DNA of 22,489 nt, taken from a virus. Every line of letters begins with the position of its first letter. The first letter of the stretch is position 1. The stretch is from IMG/VR virus record IMGVR_UViG_3300045977_000602, positions 1 through 22,489 of that record. One strand, written 5' to 3'. A program made the position numbers and the translations under genes. Shown in pieces: positions 3,011-22,489 of the stretch. The notes beneath the pieces were generated by a model. The model had not been told where the DNA came from. It saw only the letters and a program-made list of their open reading frames with translations, and ran no database searches.

Positions 3011-3026
3011 ATTCTCCTAAGAAACG

Positions 3027-3051
3027 GCCCGCTCGCAAGAGCGGGCTTTTT
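3027..3051 (+). terminator. Rho-independent terminator
   Basis: GCCCGCTC (3027-3034), a GCAA tetraloop, then GAGCGGGC (3039-3046) form a perfect 8-bp stem followed by TTTTT. It ends the transcript of the small gene 2749-2964 and separates it from the packaging genes. Confidence 0.9.
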
Positions 3052-3063
3052 CGTTTCACACCC

Positions 3064-3081
3064 GTATCTCAACGGAGATAC
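3064..3081. other. Short hairpin at the head of the repeat array
   Basis: GTATCTC (3064-3070), AACG, then GAGATAC (3075-3081) form a perfect 7-bp stem. Its 3' arm runs into the first copy of the 14-bp repeat. Confidence 0.5.
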
Positions 3082-3199
3082 GAGGACTAGATACGAGGAC
3101 TGAAATACGAGGACTGAAATACGAGGACTGAAATACGAGGACTGAAATACGAGGACTGAAATACGAGGACTGAAATACGAGGACTGAAATACGAGGACT
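3078..3199 (+). repeat. Nine-copy tandem array of a 14-bp GAGGA unit
   Basis: The core ATACGAGGACT occurs nine times, starting at 3078, 3091, 3105, 3119, 3133, 3147, 3161, 3175 and 3189. From the second copy onward the period is exactly 14 bp (unit GAAATACGAGGACT) and the last seven units are identical. Each copy holds GAGGA, the same ribosome-binding-site type used elsewhere on this phage (for example before 11283). The last GAGGA is about 13 bases before the ATG at 3211. The array fills most of the leader of the packaging operon. It could be an iteron-type protein-binding array (replication, packaging or regulation) or a ribosome-loading leader. Confidence 0.95.
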
Positions 3200-3210
3200 G
3201 AACATACTGT

Positions 3211-3510
3211 ATGATGCGATCATTGAAACCTTGTCCGGTGTGTGGTAAAGCCGTCCGTGGTGAGTGCTGCCGAGTACAAACGAGACAATCAAGCCGAGAG
3301 CGTGGTTATGATGCCCGATGGGATAAGCTCTCACGGATGTACAAACACGCTCACCCTATTTGCGAGCGATGCAATAAACACGCTGCCGAAATAGTCCACC
3401 ACAAGATACCAATAGAGACAGACCCTACACTACGGCTTGTGTGGAGCAACCTTGAAAGCCAGTGCCGAGTATGTCATAGCCAAACCCACAAGGAACTAGA
3501 TGCAACTTGA
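3211..3510 (+). CDS. HNH endonuclease (packaging-associated)
   Basis: A 99-residue protein typical of the small HNH nucleases found next to terminase genes in HK97-like phages, where they cooperate with the terminase in DNA maturation. Zinc ligands: C8/C11 at the N terminus, then C51/C54 (ICERC) and C85/C88 (CRVCH). The HNH core is VHHKIP (H63, H64), N80 in WSNLESQC, and H93 in SQTH. The family-typical RGYDARWDKLSRMYK stretch precedes it. A second ATG directly follows the first. It is the first gene after the 14-bp array and overlaps the following methyltransferase start by 11 bp. Probably acts on phage DNA during packaging; the zinc and HNH residues all look intact. Confidence 0.85.
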   Translation: MMRSLKPCPVCGKAVRGECCRVQTRQSSRERGYDARWDKLSRMYKHAHPICERCNKHAAEIVHHKIPIETDPTLRLVWSNLESQCRVCHSQTHKELDAT

Positions 3511-4009
3511 TTTCCAGCTATTCGACCGGGCTACATCGTTCCGGCTATTCCTAGAGGCACTACCAGATAACCCACTCATTCTTGAAATCGGGTGCGTCCG
3601 TGGTGTGAATGATCTAGGTGCGGGCATGTCTACGTTGATCTTTGGCGAGTGGTGCCGAGAGCGGGCCGGGCGGCTAACCAGTGTGGATATAGACAAGGGT
3701 AACTGCGATTTCGCCAAGATCATCACCACTGGTTTGCCAGTGGATGTAGTCAATGCCCACTCCCACGAATATCTAGCCAGCTATCACGGCCCGCACTTCC
3801 ACGGCGTTTACCTTGACGGGATGGACACAGACATAGCGGGATGTGCCGAGAGTGCGTTGATAGAGGCACGTCTTGCATCGAGCCTAACCGGGTTGATCTT
3901 GATTGATGACGTTGCCGACAAAGGCAAGCTGGCGGTGCCGTGGCTACAAGCCCACGGCTACACCACGATGCACGCTGGCTACCAAGCGTTGATGCGAAGA
4001 AACTTTTAA
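3500..4009 (+). CDS. Class I SAM-dependent methyltransferase
   Basis: A 169-residue Rossmann-fold methyltransferase. Motif I is LILEIGCVRG (26-35) with GAGMST following; an acidic pair in SVDIDKGN (D63, D65) would bind the SAM ribose. YLDGMD (104-109) and ILIDDVADKGK (133-143) resemble the metal-binding DxD/DD of O-methyltransferases of the Methyltransf_24/CmcI-like type rather than DNA methyltransferases, because no NPPY or DPPY motif is present. The substrate is unknown: sugar, small molecule or protein are possible. It overlaps the HNH gene by 11 bp, so translation is probably coupled. A second methyltransferase domain of similar style is fused to a glycosyltransferase at 17338-18801, and the two might act on the same glycan. 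Confidence 0.7.
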   Translation: MQLDFQLFDRATSFRLFLEALPDNPLILEIGCVRGVNDLGAGMSTLIFGEWCRERAGRLTSVDIDKGNCDFAKIITTGLPVDVVNAHSHEYLASYHGPHFHGVYLDGMDTDIAGCAESALIEARLASSLTGLILIDDVADKGKLAVPWLQAHGYTTMHAGYQALMRRNF

Positions 4010-4146: not shown

Positions 4147-4365
4147 ATGACACCTATTGAACTCAATCATATCAAGGCAGAGACATGGAAAGCGTTAAAG
4201 GACTACAGCATAGACAGTGCCGATAGTCGCAACGTAGCCCGATGGGAAAAGCTGGCCAAACTGTATGTCCAGCTTTGTAAACAACTTGTCAAGATGGAGA
4301 CAACAAAGAACACCAAACTAGATGCGTTCCTTACAAGACAAGTGGGTCAAAACCAAGAGCGATGA
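4147..4365 (+). CDS. Putative small terminase subunit
   Basis: A 72-residue helical, basic protein (TWKALKDYS, ARWEKLAKLYVQLCKQLVKM) directly upstream of TerL and overlapping its start by 44 bp. Position and composition fit a small terminase subunit, which recognises phage DNA and hands it to the large subunit. It is much shorter than usual TerS proteins (often 100-180 residues), and no helix-turn-helix is obvious, so the call rests mainly on context. The ATG has AAGGAC immediately upstream. The 137-bp gap before it holds no clear promoter or terminator. Confidence 0.45.
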   Translation: MTPIELNHIKAETWKALKDYSIDSADSRNVARWEKLAKLYVQLCKQLVKMETTKNTKLDAFLTRQVGQNQER

Positions 4366-5938
4366 AGCCGCACTAGATGCGGGGTGTTATTTTGACATAA
4401 CCCATGCCGAGCGTGTGCGGGAGTTCATCGGCACTTTCTGCAAGCTCTCCATTGACGAGTGGGCCGGTAAGCCGTTCCAATTCCTTCCGTTCCAATGGGA
4501 AGAAATCGTAGTCCCACTGTATGCGTGGCGTAGACCGGACGGCACCCGCCGTTTCACACAAGCCTCTATCTGGATGCCAAAATCTAATGGCAAGAGTTGT
4601 CTGTGTGCCGCTCTGTCTTTGTATGAGCTTATCGGCAGCCAAACCCCGTCCGCAAACATCGTAGTAGTTGCTACCACGATAAGCCAAGCCAAGATCATCT
4701 ACAAGTACACCACGGATATGGTAGCTCAAGACGAGTGCCTACAAGATGCTCTATGGTGTAGAGACAACATCAACACAATCGAGTATGACGCTACCCGCTC
4801 CACATACCGGGTAATGAGTGGTGAGAAGGGTGGAAAACACGGACACCCGATAAGCCTACTTCTTTTTGACGAGCTTGCCGAACAAGACAATAGACAGCTA
4901 TTTGAGGCACTACGTTACAACGTCAACAAACGTAGGAACTCACTTTGCATCAATATTTCCACGGCGGGATTTCGGCGTGAGAGCATCGGCTATGAAGAGT
5001 TCCAAAGAGCCGAGCGAATCTTGAGCAATGAGATAGTAGACACGTCTACGCTGCCCGTGGTGTATGCGGCCAAAGGTGATGACGATTGGAAATCCCTTGA
5101 TGTAGCCAAGCGAGTAAATCCAGCGTGGGGCATAACTGTCTTTCCAGACAAAGTACAAGAGGAATTGAATCAAGCTATCCACGAACCACGGAAGGAAGCG
5201 GCGTACCGTACTCTACGGCTTAACCAGTTTTGCGGCATAGCTACGGGGTGGATCAACTCGCAACTATGGAGCGAGTGCGGAGCGGCTTTCAATGAGGAAG
5301 ATTTGCACGGCCTAGATTCATGGGTAGGGTACGACATTGGATTCAAGGGAGATTTATCGGCCTACGTTGTCTGTGTTCCGAAAGATGACAAGGTATATTT
5401 GATACCACGTTTCTTTTGTCCAGAGCTAGGTGCCGAGCGAAAGGAACGTCAAGACAAAGTGCCTTACCAGCAATGGAGCAAGACACCGAAATATAATTTT
5501 ACTCTCACGCCGGGTGAAGTGATAGACCCGATTTTCGTCCGTGAGAAGATGCGTGAGGATAGCCGTCTGTTCAACTTCGTGGAAGTGGCCTATGACCCCA
5601 CAAGAGGATATGACGAGTTTCGCCAGATATGTGAACGTGAGTACGGATGGACAATGGTAGCGGTGCCACAAAGAGCGAAGTATCTAGGTGCGGCTTGTGC
5701 GTGGCTAGAGCGGGCCGTGTTGAGCAAGAGCCTACGGCACCCAAACAACCCGGCTCTCAACTGGAATCTTGAGAACGTGGCCATAAAGGAAACGGCAGAC
5801 GGGCCGTACCCCTACAAGGGAGCGGGTGAGACACAGAGGATTGACGGTGTGTTGGCGGCTCTGATGGGCATTAGTCGCTATTTGGTCAAGGATGTATTCA
5901 CGGCATCGGTGTATGAAAATGCTGGCGTCACCCTCTAA
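4322..5938 (+). CDS. terL: Terminase large subunit (TerL)
   Basis: The ATP-driven packaging motor and headful/cos nuclease. The 538 residues have the two-domain layout of HK97-like TerL. ATPase: Walker A MPKSNGKS (85-92), Walker B LLLFDE (179-184), coupling motif NISTAG (211-216). RNase H-like nuclease: acidic residues D338 and D344 in VGYDIGFKGD, D425 in AYDPTRG, and D508 in RIDGV. All key residues are present and the length is normal. The ATG at 4322 lies inside the preceding gene, which suggests translational coupling; no strong ribosome binding site is seen. The portal gene follows after 7 bp. Confidence 0.95.
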   Translation: MRSLQDKWVKTKSDEAALDAGCYFDITHAERVREFIGTFCKLSIDEWAGKPFQFLPFQWEEIVVPLYAWRRPDGTRRFTQASIWMPKSNGKSCLCAALSLYELIGSQTPSANIVVVATTISQAKIIYKYTTDMVAQDECLQDALWCRDNINTIEYDATRSTYRVMSGEKGGKHGHPISLLLFDELAEQDNRQLFEALRYNVNKRRNSLCINISTAGFRRESIGYEEFQRAERILSNEIVDTSTLPVVYAAKGDDDWKSLDVAKRVNPAWGITVFPDKVQEELNQAIHEPRKEAAYRTLRLNQFCGIATGWINSQLWSECGAAFNEEDLHGLDSWVGYDIGFKGDLSAYVVCVPKDDKVYLIPRFFCPELGAERKERQDKVPYQQWSKTPKYNFTLTPGEVIDPIFVREKMREDSRLFNFVEVAYDPTRGYDEFRQICEREYGWTMVAVPQRAKYLGAACAWLERAVLSKSLRHPNNPALNWNLENVAIKETADGPYPYKGAGETQRIDGVLAALMGISRYLVKDVFTASVYENAGVTL

Positions 5939-5945
5939 ATAGGAC

Positions 5946-10355: not shown

Positions 10356-10823
10356 CTAGGCCAAAGTGCGAAGTAGGTCAATGTCCCGTATCGCTTTCGC
10401 CAGCATCATCTTTTCAGCATAATTGTACAATCTGTTGAACGTGACGTTGCAACGATAGCAACATGGCACAGCAGTAGCGACGTTATACACTGCCTCATTG
10501 TTCCTTCGGTCAAGCCCGCTTCCGCTATCGTCAAGTTCCCTTCCGCAATAGTGACACAATCCGTTTTCCATCACGCTCGCATACTCTTGAAATGAAAGCT
10601 CAAAGGCAATGTCACGGATTTTGGCGTTTGCCTTAGCCGTTGTGTACCGTCCTTTGATCGTGCGTGCGTACTCCATGCGTTTGGCAAGTAGCTCGTCTTT
10701 CTTGGCTTCGTAATAGGCACGTTCATAGGCAAGCCTCTTGGATGTTCGCAATTTGTCTTTCTTTTGCCTCTGATAGTATGCCCGATAGTATGCCTTTTTC
10801 GTTTCATTATCCTTGTATGCCAT
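10356..10823 (-). CDS. HNH homing-type endonuclease, antisense in the tail module
   Basis: A 155-residue protein. The N-terminal half is a Lys/Tyr-rich helical repeat (KAYYRAYYQRQKK, RAYYEAKKDELLAKR), a DNA-binding style common before phage HNH domains. The nuclease core: C90-H-Y-C93, GLDRRNN (103-109), VPCCYRCN (119-126), matching the C-x2-C ... GLDRx(D/N)N ... CC-x2-CN pattern of free-standing HNH endonucleases. Only the order of genes hints at its role: it lies opposite to the late genes, with its stop touching gp10 and its ATG just before the tail-completion gene, which fits a mobile gene inserted at an intergenic junction. No own promoter was identified with confidence. Confidence 0.85.
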   Translation of the reverse strand: MAYKDNETKKAYYRAYYQRQKKDKLRTSKRLAYERAYYEAKKDELLAKRMEYARTIKGRYTTAKANAKIRDIAFELSFQEYASVMENGLCHYCGRELDDSGSGLDRRNNEAVYNVATAVPCCYRCNVTFNRLYNYAEKMMLAKAIRDIDLLRTLA

Positions 10824-11247: not shown

Positions 11248-11282
11248 TATATAAGACAGACTCTATTTCATTGTGAGGACTA

Positions 11283-12031: not shown

Positions 12032-12330
12032 CAGAGGCAGAGCGGGTGATATACTCGCTCTGTCTACAACTCGGCTTTCCACACCCCGATTACTTGTATC
12101 CATTTCTCTCTAGCTCACAAGTCAATGACTGGCTAGAGTTCCACAAAACACACAACATTCATTTCGACCGTAGCGATACGTTCCACTCTCAACTACTGGC
12201 GATGTTCTTTAACGCACACAAGCCAGAAAATCATAAGGCACTCACTCCACTCGATTTTGTACCGTGGCGAGAGCAACCGGAACTAACTCCCGATGAACTC
12301 AAAAGAAAGCTAGGTTTCACGTCTAAATAG
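11714..12330 (+). CDS. Tail assembly chaperone GT (via -1 frameshift)
   Basis: The predicted product of -1 frameshifting: residues 1-105 from the G frame (11714-12028), then the -1 frame read from 12028 to 12330, about 205 residues. The T part (LTEAERVIYSLCLQLGFPHP, WLEFHKTHN, a Pro-rich end with PDELKRKLGF) is typical of the second frame in siphophage tail chaperones, and its frame is open upstream as far as the slip site. In the lambda system both G and GT are needed at a defined ratio. A GTG at 12046 could start the T frame independently, but the slip site and downstream stem make the fusion more likely. Confidence 0.8.
12022..12062 (+). promoter_or_regulatory. -1 programmed frameshift signal
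   Basis: The slippery heptamer A AAA AAC lies at 12022-12028 in the G reading frame, directly before the stop TGA (12029-12031). A stem CAGAGCG (12038-12044) / CGCTCTG (12056-12062) with an 11-base loop begins 9 bases after it, the usual spacing for a stimulatory structure. Confidence 0.85.
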
Positions 12331-12335
12331 GACGT

Positions 12336-20164: not shown

Positions 20165-20192
20165 CCCTCTGGCTTCATCACAAGCCAGAGGG
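20165..20192. other. Perfect 11-bp hairpin before the HUH initiator gene
   Basis: CCCTCTGGCTT (20165-20175), a 6-base loop (CATCAC), AAGCCAGAGGG (20182-20192); one further A-T pair extends it. No T run follows on the plus strand; on the minus strand TTCTTTATT follows, so it could be a minus-strand terminator. It may instead be a nicking-site hairpin for the HUH protein or a 5'-end stabiliser for its mRNA. Confidence 0.75.
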
Positions 20193-20213: not shown

Positions 20214-20927
20214 ATGACACAATTATATCAGAGCAACGCACCACTAAGCAAGGGTGAAAGCCCGCACGACAACGGGTGGACGAAAAGCCAAGAGGGTGCC
20301 ATATACGAAGCGAAGAAACTTTCAGCCGCACTGTGTAGCAATCCAAGAGCGACGTGGTTCCTTACGATCTACATTCGGCCCGTACTGGATGCTCGCCAGC
20401 ATAAATTACTTTTTCAGAAAGCCGCAAGGGTACTTCGCAAAAACAAGATTTGTGCATTTTGGATTCGTGAAATCCTTCCCACGGACAAACTACATTATCA
20501 TATCCTTGTGCGGAATGATATAAGCCGAGAGCATCTAGCCGAGATATGCGAAAGTGCTTTTCCAGAGCGTAGTATCACAAGTTGGCACAAGCGTATAATG
20601 GCGGTGCCGAGCGTGCAAGATCATAACCGAATATCGAGATATATCACGAAAGCCAAGATCATCGGCAAATATCGTGGGCGGGTGGTGAATGACAAGTATA
20701 AGCACAAGCGGCACCTATTCCAAGCAAAGACGGGCTTAAATAAACACGGTACGCTTGGCGGGTATTGGTCGAAAAATCCCGATCTAGTATGGGATGAAAT
20801 AAAGAAGCGAGAGCGAGAGCTTGCCGATATATGCCGCACGGTGGGTATGGATGTTGGCCACGTTAAATACATACTTCGATGGAGAAAGCACAATGGACAG
20901 AGACGAGATTATCAGCCAGCTTGTTAA
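20214..20927 (+). CDS. HUH-endonuclease replication initiator (Rep-like)
   Basis: A 237-residue protein with the three motifs of HUH Rep proteins in order: motif I ATWFLTIYIRP (46-56), motif II LHYHILV with metal-binding H94 and H96, and motif III ISRYITKAK with candidate nicking Tyr143 and Lys146 (Y-x2-K). Basic C-terminal region (KYKHKRHLFQ, RWRKHNGQRR) should help bind DNA. Such enzymes nick one strand and stay covalently bound to the 5' end to start rolling-circle replication. A hairpin and promoter lie directly upstream, and the divergent ATPase might supply unwinding. GGGAG lies 13 bases before the ATG, in a leader similar to that of the ATPase gene. Larger HUH initiators are known in P2-like tailed phages; this one is small. 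A relaxase or transposase relation is less likely given the context. Confidence 0.75.
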   Translation: MTQLYQSNAPLSKGESPHDNGWTKSQEGAIYEAKKLSAALCSNPRATWFLTIYIRPVLDARQHKLLFQKAARVLRKNKICAFWIREILPTDKLHYHILVRNDISREHLAEICESAFPERSITSWHKRIMAVPSVQDHNRISRYITKAKIIGKYRGRVVNDKYKHKRHLFQAKTGLNKHGTLGGYWSKNPDLVWDEIKKRERELADICRTVGMDVGHVKYILRWRKHNGQRRDYQPAC

Positions 20928-21143: not shown

Positions 21144-21171
21144 ACACCCCACGGCGTTAGCCGTGGGGTGT
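21144..21171 (-). terminator. Strong hairpin, probable recombinase terminator
   Basis: ACACCCCACGGC (21144-21155), a GTTA loop, GCCGTGGGGTGT (21160-21171): a perfect 12-bp stem just beyond the recombinase stop. Read on the minus strand it runs into TTCTATATT, a modest T-rich tail. It could also stop transcripts arriving from the small gene at 21063. Confidence 0.7.
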
Positions 21172-21178
21172 GGGTGGA

Positions 21179-22489
21179 TTACTTGCCGAATATGAAAGCG
21201 TGAACGGTGGTAAGAGCCGTATCTAGTTCGGCTTTTTGCTCTGGCGTGAAGCTAGAGTAGTATTTGCCGTGGTTGCCGTGGGGTTTCTCACAACGATATA
21301 GGCGGCTCTGGCGTTCTCCGCATTTATCCTCTATCCATTGCTGGACAGTCTTACGCAACGCTGAATGATCCGGCAGACCGTGTTTCTTGGCAAAGGTATC
21401 GAAGTGTTCCCACAGACGGCGGGAGTATCGTTTCTTGCCGAGCTTGTCTTGCGGGCCGTATTGTAACACGGTTTTCGTTTCATCCCACAACAGCCAGCTT
21501 CCGACCATTGGCGTACCCTTGTTCTTATTTTTGGCTCTGCCTTTCTCGATACGTTCGCCGTTGATGAAATGATCCGTGGTGAGTTCCGCCAAATCCGACC
21601 AATAGAAACCAGCGTTCAAGCCCATCAAGAGTGCGAAACGAACATCGCCGGTAGCCTCTTTCAGAGCGGTTTGCACTTGCTCGAAACTGTAACGAATCTT
21701 CTTACCGTCTGGCGTAGCTTTCTTGTAATCGGGGTTACGGATGAAGCCGAAAAAGACGTTGTAATCAGCTTCGATGCGTTTCAAGAATGTGTGTACGATA
21801 CGCTGCCGGTTGATCCGGGTACGCTCACCCCACGTTTCTTGTTTTTCGAGTAGTTCAAGGAACTTGCGATAGTGGGTAGTATCCACTTCACGGAAGGGAA
21901 TATCCCCACAAGCCGAGAAGAAAAGATCAAGGGCGGCTTTCGTATCGTACCATCCCTTGTGTTCTTTTGCCTTGTGCCGAGCGATGTAGATTTCGATTTC
22001 GTTTTTCAAGCTGTCCTTTTTCGGGATAGCTGGCTTGATGAATTTATCTTCCAGAATGGAGAGGCGGATATAGTCGTCATCTTCGATGCCAAGCTCATTG
22101 GCGAGCGGTGCCACAAGCGGATTGACGATGGGCATATCGGCGTTGTAAATGTCGTGGGCCGGTACGTTGATGCACCGTTGCAACTCGGCATCAAGAGCGG
22201 TGGTATCTTGGCCTTGCTCTCGCAACATCCCGATGCAACGCTCGATAGACCATATCCGTAGCTTTAGTGGCGAGTTGTCCCGCTTGGTAGCGGTATCCTT
22301 GCTCTCCATCATCGCCAGATACTTTTGCCAGTATGGGCGGCTTGCGTTCTCGCTTTTCGGGAGTTCCACGTCAAAGAGCTTCGATAGCTGGCGGGTGGAC
22401 GCACTGTATTTGTGCGTGGTGGTACGGAGCTTCCAAGTAGCCGTCGAATGATCGTAGCAACCCGTTCCCTTACGTCGCATGTCTGTCAT
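21179..22489 (-). CDS. Tyrosine recombinase/integrase-like protein, diverged active site
   Basis: At least 436 residues; the ATG is at the last base of the window, so the true start may lie further out. Layout: an N-terminal arm-type region (1-155), a core-binding domain (about 160-245, HKGWYDTKAALDLFFSACGD to RQRIVHTFLKRIEADY) and a catalytic-like domain (about 265-436). In the first catalytic box LLMGLNAGFYWSDLAELT the usual Arg (GLR) is replaced by Asn/Ala; the HxxR box reads HSALRKT with Arg379 but Ser at the His position; HGNHGKYY offers a late His and candidate Tyr410/411. I recall a planctomycete integrase group with a similar GLN box. It would integrate or excise the phage, or be an inactive relative. 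A terminator follows its stop. Confidence 0.75.
   Translation of the reverse strand: MTDMRRKGTGCYDHSTATWKLRTTTHKYSASTRQLSKLFDVELPKSENASRPYWQKYLAMMESKDTATKRDNSPLKLRIWSIERCIGMLREQGQDTTALDAELQRCINVPAHDIYNADMPIVNPLVAPLANELGIEDDDYIRLSILEDKFIKPAIPKKDSLKNEIEIYIARHKAKEHKGWYDTKAALDLFFSACGDIPFREVDTTHYRKFLELLEKQETWGERTRINRQRIVHTFLKRIEADYNVFFGFIRNPDYKKATPDGKKIRYSFEQVQTALKEATGDVRFALLMGLNAGFYWSDLAELTTDHFINGERIEKGRAKNKNKGTPMVGSWLLWDETKTVLQYGPQDKLGKKRYSRRLWEHFDTFAKKHGLPDHSALRKTVQQWIEDKCGERQSRLYRCEKPHGNHGKYYSSFTPEQKAELDTALTTVHAFIFGK

Follow-up and report, generated by a model that had tools for sequence, protein, structure and literature searches.

The window analysed here is a 22,489-nucleotide stretch of DNA from a tailed phage known from metagenomes (IMG/VR record IMGVR_UViG_3300045977_000602) in which a short tandem repeat lies on the + strand ahead of an HNH endonuclease gene. 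The gene upstream of the repeat encodes a 71-aa protein; its leader, GAGGAGTAGATACAGT (2733-2748, +), contains the element GAGGANTAGATAC in common with the first two copies of the array, and the gene is followed by an intrinsic terminator composed of GGCCCGCTCGCAAGAGCGGGCT and a T-rich tail (3026-3052, +). Directly 3' of the array is the HNH gene (3211-3510, +; Pfam HNH, 5.7e-8; phrog_144, 2.2e-20). Further downstream are a small gene (4147-4365, +), which by its position before TerL alone probably encodes TerS and which has no match in Pfam or PHROG, and the gene for the terminase large subunit, TerL (4322-5938, +). A methyltransferase-like gene (3500-4009) sits between the HNH and TerS genes of the window; it is missing from L010, a contig of the related phage described below, where the alignment skips from window position 3495 to 3994. 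The placement of the array between the terminator and the HNH start codon at 3211, as given in the initial annotation of this DNA, is therefore correct.

The core ATACGAGGACT occurs nine times on the + strand, with starts at 3078, 3091, 3105, 3119, 3133, 3147, 3161, 3175 and 3189, and the array proper spans 3075-3199 (97% matches, TRF score 237). The nine copies counted in the initial annotation are borne out by both the core positions and TRF, and its span of 3061-3210 has to be corrected to these narrower limits. Copy 1 (3075-3088, +) is the variant GAGATACGAGGACT, copy 2 (3089-3101, +) is the variant AGATACGAGGACT, one base short at 13 nt, and copies 3-9 (3102-3199, +) are, as had been described, seven identical units of GAAATACGAGGACT. 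The exact 14-bp period that had been reported holds for the seven later steps, but the first step is 13 bp. These are near-identical short units arranged head to tail, i.e., a short tandem repeat, and the array is not a chance occurrence; outside it, the core is matched just twice in the window, each time with 2 mismatches. The link between the array and the start codon, GAACATACTGT (3200-3210, +), opens like one more unit. A perfect 8-bp inverted repeat, CGTATCTC-AACG-GAGATACG (3063-3082, +), had been overlooked in the first reading; its right arm coincides with the opening 8 nt of copy 1, and the window contains about eight inverted repeats of this kind in all.

No ATG, GTG or TTG occurs on the + strand of the array, and a protein-coding repeat on that strand was rejected because the TGA of the unit closes every frame within three units. 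On the - strand an ORF of 92 aa (3056-3334) is open through the array, but its frame has no counterpart in L010 or other support, and a coding repeat was rejected here as well. A search of the + strand in and near the array found no sigma-70 promoter-like site. The predicted RNA fold has a mean unpaired probability of 0.59, with the GAGGA sites only about half unpaired, and a special RNA fold was rejected (z = -1.7, mostly from the left hairpin). We also considered a palindromic operator, ATACWGTAT, of which two exact sites, both of them overlapping a start codon, lie at 2742 and 3204; it was not convincing, and with one mismatch allowed there are 6 sites versus 3.0 expected, a number reached in 6 of 100 shuffles.

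The initial annotation had noted a GAGGA resembling a ribosome-binding site in each unit, and an intact Shine-Dalgarno core is indeed present in all copies. Relative to random 22-mers (-3.3 kcal/mol), the duplex of the unit with the anti-SD is stronger (-5.9 kcal/mol) and equals the median for the gene leaders on our list, as calculated with a generic anti-SD tail that may differ from that of the host; one start on that list (20875) is wrong, without effect on the conclusion. This is the pairing strength that a leader with multiple Shine-Dalgarno or standby sites would have. There are 17 GAGGAC sites on the + strand of the window, nine of them in the array, and none on the - strand. Either GAGGAC or AGGAC is found directly before the starts at 11275 (GAGGACTAATG), 17371 (ATACAGAGGACAATG), 4139 (ATAAGGACATG), 5940 (TAGGACATG) and 12328 (TAGGACGTATG). 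The GAGGA of the last unit (3193-3197, +) forms an anti-SD duplex of -6.3 kcal/mol and ends 13 nt before the HNH ATG, whereas most GAGGA sites at the starts of this phage lie 2-5 nt away. At that distance from the AUG it would be a poor direct Shine-Dalgarno sequence, so that the leader reading is better framed in terms of standby sites.

The divergent copies 1-2, presumably the oldest, hold GAGGACTAGATAC, and the leader of the 71-aa gene at 2733 holds GAGGAGTAGATAC; 12 of the 13 bases match, and an equal score was obtained by 1 of 4889 random 28-mers. This likeness was noticed post hoc, as one picked among about 25 leaders, and as sequence evidence we regard it as moderate. When the unit was compared with the leaders of the phage, its similarity to them was matched at none of 300 random positions but by 32 of 300 shuffled units, and thus it partly reflects purine-rich composition. 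Among leaders of other genes, those of the portal and tape-measure genes (5934-5945 and 12322-12333) both carry TCTAAATAGGAC just before the ATG, the best of 300 leader pairs.

In IMG/VR the repeat was found in only one other contig, L009, which matches the window at 100% identity across 8504 bp and so represents the same phage. Both assemblies have nine copies, which is uninformative on the stability of the copy number because they represent one phage. The array was found in none of 84,980 GTDB genomes searched with a looser two-copy pattern, the 15 single two-copy matches being judged to be chance; the phage collection held no DNA match to the array region, and no such array lies upstream of distant HNH relatives (28-42%). 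The nearest cellular relative found, in a search of 294 genomes from the phylum Planctomycetota alone, has a TerL of 37% identity and the same HNH-TerS-TerL order (L105/L117), and its locus is without the array. That the host belongs to the Planctomycetota would be a guess from this match.

The closest relative of the window is a sister phage represented by L010 and L011, contigs from two metagenomes that are mutually identical over 10,287 bp. Its TerL is 91%, its TerS-like protein 87% and its HNH protein 79% identical to those of the window, and its gene order is the same, with the 71-aa gene, the terminator and HNH. The terminator hairpin is kept in L010 with the stem altered on both sides (GGCCTACTC...GAGTAGGCC), and the gap between terminator and HNH is about 36 bp, with no repeats and no array. 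The HNH leader of the sister phage has no Shine-Dalgarno sequence (+0.7 kcal/mol versus -6.3 kcal/mol in the window). As judged from this alignment, the array was gained in the lineage of the window or lost in that of the sister, with the neighbouring genes kept. Such presence in one lineage is a property of minisatellites. It also bears on conservation in relatives, the lack of which had been set beforehand as counting against a functional array: the sole close relative available does not have it.

From these comparisons, the array is most likely a leader repeat, recently expanded and dispensable, rather than a site for packaging or replication. At a probability of roughly 0.45, we favour a ribosome-binding-site module that was tandemly amplified in this lineage to give HNH a standby leader with multiple Shine-Dalgarno sites. 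The array would be a minisatellite in the untranslated HNH leader, its unit being one ribosome-binding-site module of the phage (AUAC + GAGGAC). A leader of the GAGGANTAGATAC type, as found before the 71-aa gene, would have been placed ahead of HNH; a 13-nt duplication would have produced copies 1-2, and slipped-strand mispairing would then have added 14-nt copies, of which the last seven would be the youngest. Transcription through the array would give HNH an extended leader that lacks a start codon but offers nine Shine-Dalgarno-like sites; 30S subunits might bind at these upstream sites and travel to the HNH AUG, modestly raising HNH translation. Standby sites are able to act at a distance through ribosome sliding (PMC3936740). 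In favour of the leader reading are the HNH-sense orientation of the array, the strength of its Shine-Dalgarno pairing, its resemblance to phage leaders, the lack of internal start codons and the sister HNH leader without a Shine-Dalgarno sequence; against it are the lack of a promoter-like site in our search, the 13-nt spacing, the composition effect, the half-paired GAGGA sites and the ability of the sister phage to manage without the array. Of the options in the initial annotation, the standby leader fits best on strand, Shine-Dalgarno strength, leader likeness and absence of starts inside, but the translation boost that it included stays inferred: the array may raise HNH output as predicted, have no effect, or bind a GGA-recognising Csr-like protein. 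An array that adjusts translation would amount to a natural rheostat set by the copy number of whole ribosome-binding modules, easily tested with reporters.

Protein-binding sites commonly take the form of direct repeats of this length, and the initial annotation had proposed an iteron array or a cos/pac region. The repeats would then be iterons or operators for a phage regulator, for the HUH-like initiator encoded at 20214-20927, or for a packaging complex of TerS and HNH. The form of the repeat agrees with this, as do the HNH, TerS-like and TerL genes next downstream and the length of three units (42 bp, four helical turns), although each 14-bp step is itself out of helical phase. The sister phage argues strongly against cos/pac or any other essential protein-recognition site, since it keeps near-identical genes without the array, and a site required by TerS, HNH or TerL would be expected to be kept among phages with the same TerS and TerL. 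Furthermore, HK97 TerS recognises one 15-bp site and not repeats (PMC11331095); the array neighbourhood resembles that of HK97 cos/pac in its HNH, TerS-like and TerL genes, but the HK97 site is single and has an A-tract, whereas the array is repeated, has none and is missing in the sister. The window, L009, L010 and L011 are all continuous here, with no sign of a genome end. As for an iteron origin, the repeats do not lie beside an initiator gene, the HUH-like gene being about 17 kb away, and the window has no other good copies of the core. The cos/pac proposal thus finds no support, and a packaging or iteron site was rejected as the main reading on account of the sister phage; an iteron or regulator array is weakened by the same absence but still counts as a rival, if an improbable one.

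Nearly as likely as the standby leader, by contrast, is a purine-rich leader segment amplified by slippage that has no function and is tolerated after a terminator and without a start codon, a reading we hold tentatively. The missing array at an otherwise conserved site in the sister phage is what it predicts, identical copies on one side with variants on the other form a slippage pattern, and GAGGA arrays of unrelated sequence in other phage contigs are by no means all located before genes. An intact Shine-Dalgarno core in all copies, in sense to the next gene, would not be required of a neutral array. Were the array neutral, it would warn against taking every tandem repeat with Shine-Dalgarno cores in the vicinity of terminase genes for a cos/pac or iteron site; comparison with a sister phage is the quick way to decide. 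We consider it unlikely that the array acts at the RNA level by attracting a Csr/Rsm-type protein to its nine single-stranded GGA motifs, whether for control of HNH translation or for titration of the host regulator. The CsrA SELEX consensus RUACARGGAUGU is matched by AUACGAGGA at 8 of its first 9 positions, and the match recurs nine times within 125 nt, but the sole mismatch falls in ACA, which is fully conserved in SELEX (the array has ACG), and GGA is inherent to any Shine-Dalgarno core. For comparison, RsmZ bears eight GGA motifs over 127 nt, and RsmE can be bound by a single-stranded A-GGA with micromolar affinity (PMC4005645); AGGA occurs nine times in the array but is not presented in loops, whereas such binding arrays mostly use hairpin loops. 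Also in favour, Csr proteins have been suggested to read the TAACTGA repeats (PMC4679880). CsrA was found in 42 of 119 sampled Planctomycetota genomes, a phylum to which the host may or may not belong, and the phage proteins scanned gave no CsrA match. An evolved RNA decoy, whose nine GGA/Shine-Dalgarno units would sequester a Csr-type regulator of the infected host or else idle 30S subunits, would be more doubtful still; if true, it would be a phage counterpart of RsmZ/CsrB built by simple repeat expansion.

The standby leader that we prefer was also compared with known systems. Standby sites (Espah Borujeni et al., 2013, PMC3936740) are accessible upstream leaders that can capture 30S before the start codon, as the array may do, but they are defined by single-stranded area beside hairpins rather than by repeated Shine-Dalgarno sequences. 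The TAACTGA heptamer direct repeats are intergenic in Beggiatoaceae, Cyanobacteria and Bacteroidetes, with a proposed, experimentally unconfirmed translational role (MacGregor, 2015, PMC4679880). They too are perfect tandem arrays of a short unit, located in sense shortly before start codons, some of them absent from the same site in relatives, with stops in the forward frames and an open reverse strand. Their unit is 7 bp with little Shine-Dalgarno character and many sets occur per genome, whereas the window has a single set of a different, 14-bp unit with a Shine-Dalgarno core, which places the array outside the TAACTGA type. When phage contigs were searched for GAGGA recurring every 14 bp, 23 others came up, several with GAGGACT-type repeats and others coding or unrelated. 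In L061, L056, L058 and L063 the GAGGA repeats are intergenic and in sense, ending about 16-100 bp before a gene start; their units are 7-bp GAGGACT or 14-bp GAGGACGTAGCTGC, or in L063 GAGGA with ATG, and the phages are unrelated, and these arrays are probably of independent origin. L063 carries GAGGATTTCGACAT four times at 4713-4759, each unit with a Shine-Dalgarno sequence and an ATG, before a gene. A literature search found no phage leaders with multiple Shine-Dalgarno sequences. The array joins a loose, known kind of repeat, with the twist that its unit is a ribosome-binding-site module.

Several other features of the window were recorded. The first gene has 63-bp in-frame repeats, EQAERHGEMIRQAERIARPI (49-191). 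A free-standing HNH-like endonuclease gene lies amid the tail genes (10356-10823, -), and L010 joins the two flanks (window 10356 and 10837) directly at 10408/10409, and thus presents the cleanly unoccupied site of a mobile endonuclease gene. The HUH-like gene (20214-20927, +) has a weak match to REP_ORF2-G2P of rolling-circle replication (E 0.0014), in a tailed-phage genome. Perfect inverted repeats are found just before it (CTCTGGCTTCATCACAAGCCAGAG, 20167-20190) and beside the integrase gene (ACCCCACGGCGTTAGCCGTGGGGT, 21146-21169); terminator, att or origin elements are possible identities for both. To the left of the window, L009 1573-1712 is 72% identical, in inverted order, to the start of the integrase (window 22341-22480), which would represent either two integrase-like genes or an inverted duplication.
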